Part shown: piece after piece, positions 1,855 through 58,785 of the stretch
Layout of the letters: the number at the start of each line of letters is the position of its first letter
How positions within the stretch are numbered: position 1 is the first letter of the stretch
DNA from: an uncultured Paracoccaceae bacterium
GTDB taxonomy: Bacteria; Pseudomonadota; Alphaproteobacteria; Rhodobacterales; Rhodobacteraceae
DNA: 64,000 nucleotides
Reading direction: 5' to 3'
Assembly (NCBI GenBank): GCA_947499715.1
Contig: CANMPL010000004.1
Span: forward strand, 62,001 to 126,000
Notes under the pieces: generated by a model
The model's database searches: none
Told to the model about the DNA's origin: nothing
The model's input: only the letters and a program-made list of their open reading frames with translations
Program-made: the position numbers and the translations under genes

Positions 1855-1972
1855 GGTCAGGGTCCTTTATGCAGTCCCCTGACCTAAACCCTCCGCAGCC
1901 ACAAACCTCAAGGCTGTTTGCGCTAAACCTTACCGCAAGGCCCCCGAATTTTCGTCGAAAATGCGCGTCCGC

Positions 1973-3259
1973 TCAGACCGCTTCGATCCGGATCGCCACT
2001 GGATTGCCGGTGACAACGCCGGTTTTTGCAAAAGCTGTAATCGCTTCATCAAGGCTCGACCGGGTGGTTTTATGCGTCACGATCAACACCGGGGCTGCGG
2101 CGTCGTCGTGATCGTATTGCCGCATCCGATCAATCGAAATACCTGCATCCCCCAAGGCCGTCGCGACCTTGGCCAAAGCACCCGGCTTATCCACCAATTG
2201 CAGGCGCAGATAATATGGCGCCGCGACCGACCCCTGCGCCGCGCGGGCCTTGCGCAGGCCCTTTGCGGGTTGGCCAAACACGCAGCCGCGCGTGCCACGG
2301 GCAATATCCATCACATCACCCATTACGGCACTCGCGGTTGGGCCTTCGCCCGCACCGGGTCCGCGCAACACGATCTGGTCAACTGAATCGCCTTCTAGCA
2401 CCACCATATTGGTGCCGCCCTGCAATTGTCCCAACGGTGACCGTTCCGGCACCAGACAAGGCGACATCCGCTGTTCCAGCCCACGACCCGTCATCTGCGC
2501 CACACCAAGCAGCTTGATCTTATAACCCATGTCGGCGGCACGGTTGATATCTTCGATGGTGACCGATCCGATGCCTTCCAGCGCGACAGAGCCGAAATCG
2601 ACCTGCGTCCCAAAGGCAATTGACGACAGGATCGCAAGCTTGTGCCCGGCATCAATCCCGCCCACGTCCAATTCTGGATCGGCTTCCAGAAATCCGAGCT
2701 GATTGGCCTCATCAAAGACCGCTTCATAGCTCAGACCCGCATCCTGCATCCGGGTCAGGATATAGTTGCAGCTGCCGTTCATCACGCCCATGACGCGGGT
2801 GATTTCATTCCCGGCAAGGCCCTCTGTCAGCGCCTTCACGACCGGAATGCCGCCGGCCACCGCTGCTTCATACCGGATCACCCGGGCCTTATCTTCGGCC
2901 AGCTCTGCCAAGGCCTGCCCGTGAATCGCCAACATCGCCTTATTGGCCGTGACGACGTCCTTTCCGGCCTTAAGCGCGGCCTCTGTCGCGTCCTTGGCCG
3001 GGCCCTCATCACCGCCGATCAGCTCGACAAAAACGTCAACGTCATCGCGCGTTGCCACGGCCACGGCATCGTCTTCCCAGACGTAACCCGACAAATCCAC
3101 GTCGCGATTCTTGCCCTTGCTGCGGGCTGTGACGGCCGTGATCTCAACCGCGCGACCCGCACGAAGGGCCAGCAGATCCGCCTGTTGTTGGACAATTTTC
3201 ACAACCCCCACACCGACGGTGCCCAGTCCTGCAATGCCAAGGCGCAATGGTTTTGTCAT
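1973..3259 (-). CDS. hom: Homoserine dehydrogenase
   Basis: MTKPLRLGIAGLGTVGVGVVKI N-terminal Rossmann fold, GIPVVKALTEGLAGN, MNGSCNYILT motif, C-terminal ACT-like region. Confidence 0.95.
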   Translation of the reverse strand: MTKPLRLGIAGLGTVGVGVVKIVQQQADLLALRAGRAVEITAVTARSKGKNRDVDLSGYVWEDDAVAVATRDDVDVFVELIGGDEGPAKDATEAALKAGKDVVTANKAMLAIHGQALAELAEDKARVIRYEAAVAGGIPVVKALTEGLAGNEITRVMGVMNGSCNYILTRMQDAGLSYEAVFDEANQLGFLEADPELDVGGIDAGHKLAILSSIAFGTQVDFGSVALEGIGSVTIEDINRAADMGYKIKLLGVAQMTGRGLEQRMSPCLVPERSPLGQLQGGTNMVVLEGDSVDQIVLRGPGAGEGPTASAVMGDVMDIARGTRGCVFGQPAKGLRKARAAQGSVAAPYYLRLQLVDKPGALAKVATALGDAGISIDRMRQYDHDDAAAPVLIVTHKTTRSSLDEAITAFAKTGVVTGNPVAIRIEAV

Positions 3260-12662: not shown

Positions 12663-15562
12663 GAATCGCAGGCAAAGGCCAGATCGACCGCAACAAGCCC
12701 GTCAATTTCACCTTTGATGGCGTGTCTTATCAAGGCTTTGCCGGTGACACGCTTGCCTCGGCGCTCTTGGCCAATGGTGTTGTGCTGATGGGCCGGTCGT
12801 TCAAATACCACCGCCCGCGCGGCGTGGTGACCGCCGGGTCAGAGGAGCCAAACGCGCTCGTCACTGTCGGCGACGATCCCAACCTGCGCGCAACGACGTT
12901 GGAGATCTACAACGGCCTTGACGCCCGCAGCCAAAATGCCTGGCCCTCGCTCAAGCGGGATGTGATGGCCGTGAACGATCTGATCTCACCGTTCCTGGGC
13001 GCGGGGTTCTATTACAAGACCTTCATGTGGCCAAAATCCTTTTGGGAATCCGTCTATGAACCGATCATCCGCCGTGCCGCGGGTCTTGGCGCGCTGTCGG
13101 GCAAATCCAATGCGGACGACTATGAAAAGGCCTTTGCCTTCTGCGATGTTCTTGTCATTGGGGCCGGTCCCGCAGGTCTGATGGCCGCCTTGACGGCGGC
13201 AGAGGCGGGCGCAGATGTCATCCTCGCCGATGAAAACCCCACCACTGGTGGGCGGCTCTTGTCAGAGGATGAGGTGATCGACGGCCAGCCCGCCGCTGAC
13301 TGGGCAACAGAGGTGACCGCCAAGCTGGCCGCCATGCCAAACGTCCGCATCATGACCCGCACCACTGTGACCGGGGCCTATGACCAAGGCACATACGGCG
13401 CGCTCGAACGGGTCGGCCTGCACAAGCCCACCCGTGCTGGCACCCCGCGCGAATGCTTTTGGCGGATTGCGGCGAAACATAGCATTCTTTGCGCGGGCGC
13501 GCTCGAACGGCCCATCGCGTTTCCCAACAATGACCGCCCCGGCGTGATGATGGCCAGCGCTGTGCGCAGCTATCTGCATCGCTACGGCGTGGCCCCAGGC
13601 CAATCCGTAACCGTCTTTGGCAACAACGACGACGCCCACCGCACCGCGCGCGATCTTGAGGCCGCAGGCGTCAATGTCGCAGGCGTGATCGATACCCGCA
13701 CCGGTGTCACCTTTGATGGCAACGCGCCGTGCTTTTCCGGCGGCCGCATCACCGCGACCACGGGACGCCATGCGCTTGAAAGCATCACGGTTGAACACGC
13801 TGGCGGAAGCCGTGTCATTCGCACCGATTGCCTTGCGATGTCAGGCGGCTGGAACCCCACGGTTCACTTGACCTGCCACATGAACGGACGGCCAGAGTGG
13901 TCTGAAAACATTGCCTCTTTCGTCCCCGTCGCGGGGGCGATCCCCGGCATGGTTACAGCGGGTGCCTGTCAGGGCAGCTTTGACACGGCCGCCTGTCTGG
14001 CCGATGGGGCGAAAGCCGCCGCAGACATTCTTGGCGCGTCTGCCCCGGCAATTCCTGATGCCGACAACACCGCTTATCACATCACCCCGTTCTGGGCGGT
14101 CGAGGGAAAAGGCCGCAAGTGGCTCGACTTTCAAAACGATGTGCATGTCAAAGACATCAAGCTTGCGGCGCAGGAAAACTTCCGCTCGGTCGAGCATATG
14201 AAGCGTTACACGACCCAAGGCATGGCCACCGATCAGGGCAAATCGTCCAATGTCGCGGCCCTTGCGATCCTGGCCGACGCCACCGGGCGCGGCATCCCCG
14301 AAACCGGCACCACCACCTTTCGCCCGCCATATGTGCCCGTCAGCATCGCCGCGATGGGGGCCGGGGCGCAGGGCCACGGTTTTGCGCCAGAGCGGCTGAC
14401 CACCAGCCACGCCGCCAGCATCGCGCGCCGCGCGCCAATGATCGAAGCAGGCTTGTGGTATCGCCCAAGCTATTTCCCGCAGCCGGACGAGGCGACATGG
14501 CTTGAAAGCTGCAACCGAGAGGTGGCGATGGTGCGGAACGCCGTTGGTATCTGCGATGTGTCCACCCTGGGTAAGATCGACGTGCAAGGCCCTGATGCGG
14601 CTGCATTTTTGGACTTTGTCTATGCCAATACATTTTCGACCCTCAAGGTTGGTAAAGTCCGCTATGGGCTGATGCTGCGCGAAGACGGCCACGTGATGGA
14701 CGATGGCACCACCGCGCGGCTTTCGGACAGCCATTATGTGATGACGACTACAACCGCTGCGGCTGGTAACGTCATGAAACATATGGAATTTGTGCGCCAG
14801 GCCTTGCGCCCTGATCTTGATGTGCAAATGATCAGCGTGACAGAGCAATGGGCGCAATTCGCGGTTGCTGGTCCGAAAGCCCGCGATCTGCTCAATACCG
14901 TGCTGGACACTGCCGTCGACAACGAAACGCTGTCCTATATGGGCTGTGGCACCTGCCAGATCGGCGGCACGCCAGGGCGCATCTTTCGCATCTCTTTTTC
15001 CGGCGAACATGCCTATGAAATCGCCGTGCCTGCCCGCTACGGCGCCTCGCTTTTTAATGTCCTGAACGCGCAGGCAGAGGCGATGGGCGGCGGCCCCTAC
15101 GGCATGGAAGCGCTGAACGTGCTGCGTATCGAAAAGGGGTTTATCACCCATGCGGAAATTCACGGGCGCACGACCGCCTTTGATATCGGCATGGACCGGA
15201 TGATCAGTCGCAAAAAGGACTGCATTGGCCAGACCGCCGCGGCCCGCCCCGGCTTGATTGAGCCCGCGCGCCCGCAACTTGTCGGGCTGCAAGCGGTGGA
15301 CCCGGACGACAAATTGACCGGCGGTGCGCATTTGTTTGAGGCGGATGCGACACCCGTCAGCCTCAACGACCAGGGCTATGTCACGTCGGTTTGCTGGTCG
15401 CCGACGCTCGGCAATCACATCGGACTTGGGTTCTTGGCAAATGGCCGCGCCCGGCATGGCGAGGTCATCAAGATGGTCGATCACGTGCGCGGTGTCACCA
15501 CGCGCTGCACGGTCTGCGATCCGGTGATGTTTGACCCAGAAGGGGGACGCTTGCGTGGCTAA
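12659..15562 (+). CDS. soxA: Sarcosine oxidase alpha subunit
   Basis: INKPVNFTFDGVSYQGFAGDTLASALLANG...VLVIGAGPAGLMAALTAAEAGADVILADE and C-terminal aminomethyltransferase-like domain; ATG overlaps soxD stop. Confidence 0.93.
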   Translation: MRIAGKGQIDRNKPVNFTFDGVSYQGFAGDTLASALLANGVVLMGRSFKYHRPRGVVTAGSEEPNALVTVGDDPNLRATTLEIYNGLDARSQNAWPSLKRDVMAVNDLISPFLGAGFYYKTFMWPKSFWESVYEPIIRRAAGLGALSGKSNADDYEKAFAFCDVLVIGAGPAGLMAALTAAEAGADVILADENPTTGGRLLSEDEVIDGQPAADWATEVTAKLAAMPNVRIMTRTTVTGAYDQGTYGALERVGLHKPTRAGTPRECFWRIAAKHSILCAGALERPIAFPNNDRPGVMMASAVRSYLHRYGVAPGQSVTVFGNNDDAHRTARDLEAAGVNVAGVIDTRTGVTFDGNAPCFSGGRITATTGRHALESITVEHAGGSRVIRTDCLAMSGGWNPTVHLTCHMNGRPEWSENIASFVPVAGAIPGMVTAGACQGSFDTAACLADGAKAAADILGASAPAIPDADNTAYHITPFWAVEGKGRKWLDFQNDVHVKDIKLAAQENFRSVEHMKRYTTQGMATDQGKSSNVAALAILADATGRGIPETGTTTFRPPYVPVSIAAMGAGAQGHGFAPERLTTSHAASIARRAPMIEAGLWYRPSYFPQPDEATWLESCNREVAMVRNAVGICDVSTLGKIDVQGPDAAAFLDFVYANTFSTLKVGKVRYGLMLREDGHVMDDGTTARLSDSHYVMTTTTAAAGNVMKHMEFVRQALRPDLDVQMISVTEQWAQFAVAGPKARDLLNTVLDTAVDNETLSYMGCGTCQIGGTPGRIFRISFSGEHAYEIAVPARYGASLFNVLNAQAEAMGGGPYGMEALNVLRIEKGFITHAEIHGRTTAFDIGMDRMISRKKDCIGQTAAARPGLIEPARPQLVGLQAVDPDDKLTGGAHLFEADATPVSLNDQGYVTSVCWSPTLGNHIGLGFLANGRARHGEVIKMVDHVRGVTTRCTVCDPVMFDPEGGRLRG

Positions 15563-16085
15563 ACTGATTGCAAAAACGCCCTGCGGCGACACGCTGCCCA
15601 AAACGATCGGCAACGTCACACTGTCAGAAGTGCTGATCGACCACATGTGGTCGGTGGCCCCCTACAAGCGCCGCGAAAAGGCTGTCGCAACGGCCCTTGG
15701 TGCCACGCTGCCAAAGCCGAACCGCTTCACCACCAAAGGCGATATGCGCCTGATCTGGGCCGGACAGGGCGTGACGCTTGTGATCGCAGATCGGCTGCCC
15801 GACATGACCGACCTTGCTGCGGTCAGCGACCAGTCAGATGCCTGGGCTGTTGTTGCGGTCGAGGGAGAGGATGCGGCAGAAGTGCTTGCCCGACTGGTGC
15901 CGATTGACCTGCGCCGTGCCACGTTCAAAACCGGGCATACCGCGCGGACAATGCTGGGGCATATGACCGCAACGATCACCCGCACCGGCGCAAATCGCCT
16001 TGAAGTGATGGTGATGCGGTCCATGGCAGGGACTTTGGTGCATGACCTTACCCGCGCCGCCACGCTTTTTGCCGGGCGCGGGTAA
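15555..16085 (+). CDS. soxG: Sarcosine oxidase gamma subunit (GTG start)
   Basis: Position immediately after soxA with overlap; C-terminal RSMAGTLVHDLTRAATLF. Confidence 0.8.
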   Translation: MAKLIAKTPCGDTLPKTIGNVTLSEVLIDHMWSVAPYKRREKAVATALGATLPKPNRFTTKGDMRLIWAGQGVTLVIADRLPDMTDLAAVSDQSDAWAVVAVEGEDAAEVLARLVPIDLRRATFKTGHTARTMLGHMTATITRTGANRLEVMVMRSMAGTLVHDLTRAATLFAGRG

Positions 16086-16106
16086 CGATTTTTCGACGAA
16101 AAATCG
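16086..16106. repeat. 21-bp palindrome CGATTTTTCGACGAAAAATCG directly after soxG stop
   Basis: Perfect 10-nt arms around one central base; identical copy at 58675. Confidence 0.9.
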
Positions 16107-16141
16107 GTGCCTCCGGCGGGGATATTTTTGGCCAAAAGAAG
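16107..16141 (+). repeat. Dispersed intergenic element GTGCCTCCGGCGGGGATATTTTTGGCCAAAAGAAG
   Basis: Near-identical copies at 58754-58785 and 52523-52551 and a degenerate copy at 846-879 (reverse strand). Confidence 0.85.
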
Positions 16142-31704: not shown

Positions 31705-31871
31705 GGGGGCAGCTCCAAAATTTGTGTTGAATTTGTTTTGACTGGGAAACGGGGCGGAAAAAGGGCAGTCGCAGGGCCATTTGTGAGGTGACGCCGGGTC
31801 ATCTGGCCCCATTTCCGCCCCATTTGTCCGATGACTTGACCGATGTTTACCTTTTGTTCATATTTGAGGGC

Positions 31872-32330
31872 ATGCCTGATGACGTCCAAATCCCGCAACT
31901 CATGCCCGGTCAACTGTTGGCGCGGGGGGTGTCGCGGCATTTGCGGAGCCATGATTTTGTCAGCGTGGAAGAGCTGGTGCCGACCTCTGGTTTGCGCGTG
32001 GATGTCATGGGGTTGGGACCAAAGTCAGAGATTTGGGTGATCGAATGCAAATCAAGCCGCGCGGATTTCCAATCTGACCACAAGTGGCAAGGATATCTGG
32101 AATGGTGCGACCGGTTCTTTTGGGCGGTTGATCAGGATTTCCCGACAGAGCTGTTGCCCGGAGGGACGGGGCTGATCATCGCGGATGGCTATGACGCAGA
32201 GATCATCCGCTTGGGGCCAGAGACCAAGCTGGCCGCCGCACGGCGCAAGGTCATGGTGCAAAAGTTTGCACGACATGCCGCCATTCGGGCGCAAAACGCG
32301 CGCGATCCAGGCATGAGCGTTGCTTGGTAG
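31872..32330 (+). CDS. MmcB family DNA repair protein
   Basis: VSVEELVPTSGLRVDVMGLGPKSEIWVIECKSSRADFQSDHKWQGYLEWCDRFFWAV, MmcB-like nuclease fold. Confidence 0.85.
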   Translation: MPDDVQIPQLMPGQLLARGVSRHLRSHDFVSVEELVPTSGLRVDVMGLGPKSEIWVIECKSSRADFQSDHKWQGYLEWCDRFFWAVDQDFPTELLPGGTGLIIADGYDAEIIRLGPETKLAAARRKVMVQKFARHAAIRAQNARDPGMSVAW

Positions 32331-32335
32331 GGGCG

Positions 32336-32356
32336 CGAATTTTCGTCGAAAATTCG
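32336..32356. repeat. 21-bp palindrome CGAATTTTCGTCGAAAATTCG after mmcB stop
   Basis: Perfect 10-nt arms around one base; same core as 16086 and 58675. Confidence 0.9.
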
Positions 32357-32363
32357 GGGGTTT

Positions 32364-32384
32364 AGATTTTTCGGCGAAAAATCT
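32364..32384. repeat. 21-bp palindrome AGATTTTTCGGCGAAAAATCT, immediately 3' of the minus-strand gene ending at 32385
   Basis: Perfect 10-nt arms around one base. Confidence 0.9.
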
Positions 32385-32576
32385 CTAGCGCTTTTTGACA
32401 CCGCGCGCTGCGATTGCGGCGGCTTTGATTTCCTCGGCGATGTCATCGGCCTCGTCGGGATCGAAGTCCATCGGAATCTCAATGCCTGTGCCTTCGATAA
32501 AAAGCCGCACCATGCCGTGATCGGTTGGGCCAATTTGCAAATTGGCTTCGATGTCGCGTTCGTCGTTGATGCCCAT
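32385..32576 (-). CDS. Small DUF6324-like protein
   Basis: MGINDERDIEANLQIGPTDHGMVRLFIEGTGIEIPMDFDPDEADDIAEEIKAAA. Confidence 0.65.
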   Translation of the reverse strand: MGINDERDIEANLQIGPTDHGMVRLFIEGTGIEIPMDFDPDEADDIAEEIKAAAIAARGVKKR

Positions 32577-32657: not shown

Positions 32658-32734
32658 GCCGCCTTAGCTCAGTTGGTTAGAGCACTGGTTTGTGGAACCA
32701 GGGGTCCCCCGTTCAAGCCGGGGAGGCGGTACCA
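32658..32734 (+). tRNA. tRNA-His (anticodon GTG)
   Basis: GCCGCCTTAGCTCAGTTGGTTAGAGCACTGGTTTGTGGAACCAGGGGTCCCCCGTTCAAGCCGGGGAGGCGGTACCA; cloverleaf, anticodon loop TTGTGGA, encoded CCA. Confidence 0.96.
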
Positions 32735-58157: not shown

Positions 58158-58667
58158 ATGAGCAAGTCGAAGAAAAAAGAGTTTCAACCCAATGACTTCG
58201 TGGTCTATCCCGCGCATGGCGTTGGCAAGATCGTGAATGTTGAGACGCAGGAAGTTGCAGGCTTTGAACTGGAGCTGTTTGTAATTGCCTTTGAAAAAGA
58301 CAAGATGACCCTGCGGGTGCCGACCCACAAGGCCACAGACGTGGGCATGCGTGCGCTGTCGACGCCGGATGTTGTCAGCCATGCGATGAAAACCCTGCGT
58401 GGTAAGGCCAAGGTGAAAAAAGCCATGTGGTCGCGCCGGGCGCAGGAATATGAGCAAAAGATCAACTCTGGCGACTTGATCGCGATTGCCGAAGTCGTGC
58501 GTGACCTGCATCGGCAGGACGATCAGCGCGAGCAAAGCTATTCCGAGCGTCAGCTTTACGAAGCCGCGCTTGAGCGGTTGACTCGCGAAATCGCGGCTGT
58601 GGCGGGCAATGACGAAGTGGCCGCCGCGGAAGAGATTGACAGCGTATTGGTCTCTCGCGCGGCCTAG
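58158..58667 (+). CDS. CarD-family transcriptional regulator
   Basis: FQPNDFVVYPAHGVGKIVNVETQEVAGFELELFVIAFEKDKMTLRVPTHKA. Confidence 0.95.
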   Translation: MSKSKKKEFQPNDFVVYPAHGVGKIVNVETQEVAGFELELFVIAFEKDKMTLRVPTHKATDVGMRALSTPDVVSHAMKTLRGKAKVKKAMWSRRAQEYEQKINSGDLIAIAEVVRDLHRQDDQREQSYSERQLYEAALERLTREIAAVAGNDEVAAAEEIDSVLVSRAA

Positions 58668-58674
58668 GGCGCTG

Positions 58675-58695
58675 CGATTTTTCGACGAAAAATCG
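58675..58695. repeat. 21-bp palindrome CGATTTTTCGACGAAAAATCG after carD-family gene stop (identical to 16086 copy)
   Basis: Perfect 10-nt arms; 21/21 identity with 16086-16106. Confidence 0.92.
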
Positions 58696-58753
58696 AACCA
58701 GATTGAAAGCGGGTCGCAGGAAACTGCGGCCCGTTTGATGTTGATCTGCCGGA

Positions 58754-58785
58754 GCCTCCGGCGGGGATATTTTTAGCCAGAAGAA
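58754..58785 (+). repeat. Dispersed element copy GCCTCCGGCGGGGATATTTTTAGCCAGAAGAA, overlapping the purD stop codon
   Basis: Matches the 16107 copy with two substitutions. Confidence 0.85.

Follow-up and report, generated by a model that had tools for sequence, protein, structure and literature searches.

What does a palindrome of 21 bp do directly behind a stop codon, and does it do so as RNA or as DNA? The question is raised by the sequence at positions 16086-16106 of the window (the whole stretch of 64,000 nt that was analysed). A preliminary description had listed this palindrome with four further copies and had suggested a 3′-end element, such as a lineage-specific terminator, an mRNA 3′ stabiliser or a protein-binding site.

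Five palindromes at gene ends in the window

All five copies were found at the positions and with the sequences given in the preliminary description: an exact search of the window for TTTTCGNCGAAAA gave five hits (1949, 16090, 32340, 32368 and 58679), whereas 0.21 are expected from dinucleotide shuffles. The perfect palindrome CGATTTTTCGACGAAAAATCG (16086-16106, plus strand) follows the stop codon of a GCV_T-domain gene (15555-16085, plus strand) at a distance of 0 nt, and the same sequence recurs at 58675-58695 (plus strand), 7 nt past the stop of carD (58158-58667, plus strand). Two different perfect palindromes form a doublet with a distance of 28 bp from centre to centre: CGAATTTTCGTCGAAAATTCG (32336-32356, plus strand) lies 5 nt past the stop of mmcB (31788-32330, plus strand), and AGATTTTTCGGCGAAAAATCT (32364-32384, minus strand) lies 0 nt past the stop of the convergent DUF6324 gene (32385-32576, minus strand). 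The remaining copy (1945-1965, minus strand), 7 nt past the stop of hom (1973-3259, minus strand), is the exception among the five, since the other four are perfect across all ten pairs; its single mismatch, already reported, is at pair 8. In coordinate order the distances to the stop codon are 7, 0, 5, 0 and 7 nt, closer than the roughly 10 to 30 nt given before. The Pfam domains of the genes ending at the five copies are Homoserine_dh (hom), GCV_T, MmcB-like, DUF6324 and CarD; the gene ends of hom, mmcB, DUF6324 and CarD are as described previously, and the supposed soxG is seen here as a GCV_T-domain protein. A tRNA gene (32658-32731) is located a few hundred bases from the mmcB/DUF6324 doublet; it was the only match to Rfam at the gathering score in the window, and no Rfam family matched the palindromes.

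Copy number and anatomy of the unit

A search of the own genome (4.0 Mb) with the strict core pattern revealed 28 copies, compared to 0 for a reversed-pattern control. Of these, 26 are intergenic. The two copies within coding sequence (L015 and L021) encode I-F-[V/G]-E-N across the palindrome and are probably coding coincidences, because codons for these residues spell the palindrome. When the central spacer was freed to 0-5 nt, 28 of the 36 matches had exactly 1 base at this position; the control for this wider pattern gave 7 matches. The unit comprises ten base pairs either side of a single free base (21 bp) with the core TTCGNCGAA. Regarding TTTTCGNCGAAAA as the core, as had been proposed, is too narrow, since TTCGNCGAA is conserved and the remaining arm positions vary.

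Many of the loci were retrieved with the core pattern, so that only pairs beyond this pattern count as tests of pairing. In the 26 intergenic copies, complementarity at pairs 7-10, which are outside the search pattern, extends to 103 of 104 cells, and the base identities vary (C-G, A-T or T-A at pair 10, G-C or A-T at pair 9, T-A or A-T at pair 7). The central pair 1 is complementary in nearly all copies. Outside the unit complementarity is at chance level (4/26 for pair 11, 7/26 for pair 12 and 2/26 for pair 13), and thus the unit stops sharply at 21 bp in the own genome. Arms of up to 16 occur in some GTDB loci, many of them chosen by a pattern that fixes the inner pairs. The stem is AU-rich, and the predicted RNA fold of the palindromes ranges from −2.0 to −6.5 kcal/mol.

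As background we used 464 kb of own-genome stretches and stretches from relatives. The 464 kb contain 18 perfect palindromes whose arms reach 9 or more, and 12 of these belong to the TTCGNCGAA-core family. Matches to the nine-base core are non-palindromic coding coincidences there, and otherwise nearly always perfect ten-pair intergenic palindromes. A second palindrome family, GGTGGGCAATATTGCCCACC / GGTGGGCAA-N-TTGCCCACC, is located 5-10 nt past stop codons in the own genome (positions 100832 and 146928 of the stretch C3 130001-330000) and is also present in two relatives (G004 and G005).

Position relative to genes

The 151 intergenic copies from Rhodobacterales loci divide into 61 in convergent gaps (19.3 expected from intergenic length), 85 in tandem gaps (88.8 expected) and 5 in divergent gaps (42.9 expected). 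The enrichment in convergent and depletion in divergent regions is highly significant (p ~1e-15 or lower), and the copies are not distributed at random with respect to gene ends. A copy between tandem genes is typically close to the gene before it (median of 10 nt from its stop codon) and farther from the start of the gene that follows (median of 53 nt), also for gaps of 150-300 nt; individual distances may err through a misplaced gene, since genes were called with a simple codon-usage finder. These data support the earlier view of a 3′-end element. The placement expected for a promoter-type operator was rejected on the same numbers.

Hairpins of all kinds were also counted behind stop codons (start at 0-14 nt, arm of at least 8). 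They follow 29 of 449 genes, compared to 0-4 in shuffles, and the TTCGNCGAA-core family makes up about one third of these 29. Stop codons are also followed by hairpins of this class whose triloops (GCA, TCC, GAT) are not complementary. In the congener G001 (C1, about 649293-649369), three tandem hairpins CGTCGCATTCGCCAGAATGCGACG follow a stop codon at a spacing of 38 nt (positions 69293, 69331 and 69369 of the stretch).

Covariation of the arms

The preliminary description had noted that the arms covary between copies. This was seen between the paralogous copies, with a covariation score for 29 copies of 0.255, compared to 0.133 ± 0.020 in shuffles and no more than 0.084 after sliding the partner. 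No one-sided changes in the ten-pair stem and no one-sided G-U in columns 6-14 occur among the 29 copies. Doublets from other genera, which were selected on the core alone, are complementary to 97-98% at pairs 5-9 with about 30 arm sequences (e.g., CGATCTTTCG, CGATCCTTCG, CGAGTTTTCG, CTGATTTTCG and AAAGTCTTCG); complementarity is 91% at pair 10 and 35% at pair 11. Single-mismatch copies of clear strand comprise 3 G-U and 4 A-C, and these few copies show no evident tilt to the transcribed strand. Judged from these alignments, the symmetry itself seems to be conserved, since both halves change together. Of the two kinds of selection that had been considered, selection on pairing is supported by the covariation, and two-fold protein binding of the ordinary kind is disfavoured, since the half-sites of an operator need not covary.

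Change, gain and loss at orthologous loci

A covariation check across orthologous loci had also been proposed, and at two loci we found sequences that are changed and still palindromic. At the 16086 locus, orthologues from the same genus keep perfect palindromes of other sequence, CGATGATGCGCCGCATCATCG in G002 and CGATGATGCCGGCATCATCG in G001; the palindrome is absent from this slot in three further orthologous genomes. Compensated changes comprise CGATTTTTCG to CGATGATGCG at the 16086 orthologues and T-A to A-T at carD, where the arm has changed from CGATTTTTCG to CGATTATTCG with the opposite arm altered to match; the carD orthologue in both G004 and G005, CGATTATTCGACGAATAATCG, shows a double compensating change. 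In G001 the carD orthologue has a stem of 8 bp with the non-palindromic loop CTGGA. This loop and the triloop variants described above fit pairing within a strand better than duplex symmetry.

The mmcB palindrome (32336-32356) is conserved in G004 and G005 and is absent from G002 and G003. The DUF6324 copy (32364-32384) differs by one base in G004 and G005, giving U-G pairing in the transcript of DUF6324. No intact palindrome was found among the orthologous hom 3′ regions of five related genomes. At yet another locus, the element lies between the stop codon and a terminator-like sequence in two sister species; a clean gap is found there in the own genome and in others.

Palindromes and terminators

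The 16086 palindrome and several other copies are followed by a terminator-like repeat, GCCTCCGGCGGGGATATTTTTGGCCAAAAGAAG (16109-16141, plus strand). Its predicted stem is weak (−3.7 kcal/mol) and the consensus scan gave no terminator-like call; it is probably the actual terminator at this site. This second 3′-end repeat of the genus is present in tens of copies per genome at about 85-100% identity, in the window also near 58745-58775, and is probably the common terminator of the lineage. At carD, a GC-rich terminator hairpin outside the palindrome family, CGGGTCGCAG-GAAA-CTGCGGCCCG (58710-58733, plus strand), reaches −24.5 kcal/mol with its flanks. A GC-rich hairpin downstream of the palindrome is kept here in 6/6 species, while the palindrome is lost in 2/6. 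That the palindrome is dispensable at carD and the terminator is kept speaks against the palindrome family as the terminator. No U-tract or T-run was seen downstream of the palindromes, and the consensus scan at 16086 gave no terminator-like call.

Doublets

Palindromes often come in pairs set at a fixed distance. In the own genome, 6 of 7 doublets have a centre spacing of 28 bp, which is also the most frequent spacing in congeners. Other genomes differ: the spacing is mostly 24 in G361, 24-25 or 28 in G328, and 31-34 in G033. The spacer sequence between the palindromes is not conserved. None of 18 doublets in G361 combines two identical arms (3.3 expected, P = 0.02); such a difference would prevent mispairing or deletion, which identical copies would allow. 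An argument for RNA action had been that convergent genes each possess a palindrome; we discarded it because doublets of the same spacing are also found between tandem genes. Behind a gene of G246 (locus L231), two unrelated perfect palindromes, GCAAATCCTTGCAAGGATTTGC and CCCCAGACTTTTGCAAAAGTCTGGGG, form a doublet (positions 1783 and 1806, 23 bp apart), which suggests that other sequence families share the same architecture.

Distribution in the Rhodobacteraceae

The 19-mer GAWTTTTCGNCGAAAAWTC is present in 50 of 397 Rhodobacteraceae genomes (nearly all different genera), while controls gave zero. The 50 carriers have 332 copies in total, and the richest genomes 45, 44, 31, 21, 18 and 16. The family is patchy: a minority of genera carry palindromes, and these are amplified in some. 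Certain marine members of the family have dozens of copies; cultivable carriers include Harenicola maris, with many copies, and a Ruegeria. A scan of GTDB genomes gave mostly Rhodobacterales among the matches listed. We also considered that all relatives have species-specific replacement "dialects"; this was dismissed, as the core-less genomes sampled are mostly without stop-adjacent perfect palindromes. A 57-nt composite gave two partial matches on plasmids, both in the terminator-like half, and a search of open-access papers brought nothing relevant on the core string or the terminator-like sequence.

Comparison to known systems

The palindromes resemble the REP/BIME elements of enterobacteria and pseudomonads, which are short extragenic palindromes, present in many copies per genome as singles or doublets, often at most 15 nt past a stop codon, and patchy between species. 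Likewise, 26 of the 28 copies are extragenic, relatives have up to 45 of the 19-mers, and the distance to the upstream stop is within this limit (median 10 nt; 0-7 nt in the window). According to PMC12306157, which refers to earlier work, REPs at most 15 nt past the stop stall ribosomes. Unlike REPs, which are asymmetric and imperfect with a conserved flanking tetranucleotide, the units of the Rhodobacteraceae are exact palindromes, short and AU-rich, with arms that vary while symmetry is kept; the flanks are not conserved and no conserved flanking head was seen. The RAYT transposase (TnpA-REP; Y1_Tnp, PF01797) had 0 matches in the own genome, while controls were detected. A general association with RAYT was rejected as well: across 33 genomes of the family RAYT is present in 2, one palindrome-rich and one without palindromes. 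As RAYT is absent and the anatomy differs, we treat the family as REP-like rather than as REP; it appears to be a hitherto undescribed relative of the REP hairpins of E. coli.

In operons of E. coli, hairpins without U-tracts protect the upstream mRNA (malE-malF type; PMC5927463). The palindromes share with these the place past the gene and apart from the terminator, and the lack of a U-tract. The malE-malF-type hairpins are stable and individually different, whereas the palindrome family repeats one standardised 21-nt unit throughout the genome, with a fold that is weak (−2.0 to −6.5 kcal/mol) and not unusually stable. Intrinsic terminators also have an inverted repeat past the stop codon; in contrast to them, the palindromes have neither GC-rich stem nor U-tract, are too near the stop and coexist with real terminators.

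A further comparison is offered by the paired uptake sequences (DUS/USS) of Neisseria and Haemophilus that act as terminators, in which a fixed word is present in both orientations at gene ends. Both are genus-specific repeats that make inverted repeats at gene ends, but the palindrome arms vary freely while complementarity is kept.

RNA hairpin or DNA element

We tentatively regard the palindromes as a REP-like, stop-adjacent family of 21-bp units in the Rhodobacteraceae that lacks RAYT and acts as a 3′-UTR RNA hairpin rather than a terminator, and we put the chance of this reading somewhat below even. Each copy would be transcribed into the 3′ UTR of the preceding gene, ahead of the real terminator, and could there fold as a 9-bp stem closing a GNC triloop. 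The RNA hairpin rather than the DNA palindrome would be the working form and would affect decay or translation; the role of an mRNA 3′ stabiliser, named in the preliminary description, is a plausible candidate. The linkage to stop codons, the depletion between divergent genes, the site ahead of terminators and the non-complementary triloops favour the RNA reading. A simple RNA hairpin is weakened by its weak fold, with a predicted stability below that expected for a protective hairpin, by the near absence of G-U intermediates and by mismatches that show no evident strand bias. It is also weakened by pair 1, which is nearly always complementary and is not needed by a hairpin loop, and by the minority of genera that carry palindromes.

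The main rival has DNA as the working form, either as an extruded cruciform or single-strand hairpin, or as the site of a dedicated protein that would recognise TTCGNCGAA and gauge a length of ten base pairs; the element may also belong to the repeats that are non-autonomous and mobile, or self-correcting, and be tolerated just behind genes. The strand-symmetric constraint without G-U excess, the symmetry that is perfect to the centre in nearly all copies, the sharp 21-bp boundary, the genus-specific centre spacing of doublets with non-conserved spacers, the patchy amplification and the precise gain or loss at loci would all be expected of a DNA element. We consider it a serious rival, though less likely than the RNA hairpin, since stop proximity even in long intergenic regions and divergent depletion are hard to explain if it is blind to transcription. 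A protein site would moreover need no covarying arms, variable doublet spacers speak against copying of whole doublets, and the own genome lacks RAYT. A further reading is a neutral repeat, with symmetry arising from template-switching correction of quasi-palindromes and placement from selection against insertion elsewhere. Double changes without one-sided intermediates, the differences in presence between close species and the patchy copy number would fit, but this explanation is improbable: it leaves unexplained why the TTCGNCGAA core is constant across genera, why the length is exactly 21 bp, how the doublets are spaced and why copies sit at 0-10 nt when the intergenic region spans 150-300 nt. 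A lineage-specific intrinsic (Rho-independent) terminator, one of the initial proposals, would agree with sites past stops and between convergent genes. It is very improbable in view of the 9-bp AU-rich stem without a following U-tract, of the separate conserved hairpin at carD, and of the position, since in E. coli an intrinsic terminator a few nt past the stop is repressed by the ribosome (PMC4824070). The operator of a conventional dimeric transcription factor or nucleoid protein would likewise show two-fold symmetry and a conserved central core, and yet it has hardly any likelihood, since the arms covary rather than vary independently, the copies are at 3′ ends and not at promoters, and an orthologous locus retains a palindrome of different sequence.

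Beyond the RNA hairpin as such, we propose, as an unlikely but specific extension, a candidate hairpin system of the Rhodobacteraceae. A factor would read the loop-proximal TTCGNCGAA of a 21-nt hairpin and measure exactly ten pairs, in single hairpins or in paired hairpins at genus-specific spacing, placed closely past stop codons; the arms would be free as long as they are exactly complementary, and paired hairpins would differ, which would prevent mispairing.

If the reading as a stop-adjacent RNA hairpin family is right, a lineage beyond the usual REP hosts has repeatedly set a standardised palindrome behind the stop codons of unrelated genes, and this occurred without the transposase that is thought to generate such repeats. 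Present ideas on 3′ hairpins explain neither why one-sided intermediates are lacking nor why the spacing of doublets is fixed. With presence or absence in close relatives and many compensated arm variants, the hundreds of copies would be a natural library for probing how a stop-adjacent hairpin affects ribosome release, decay and gene output.
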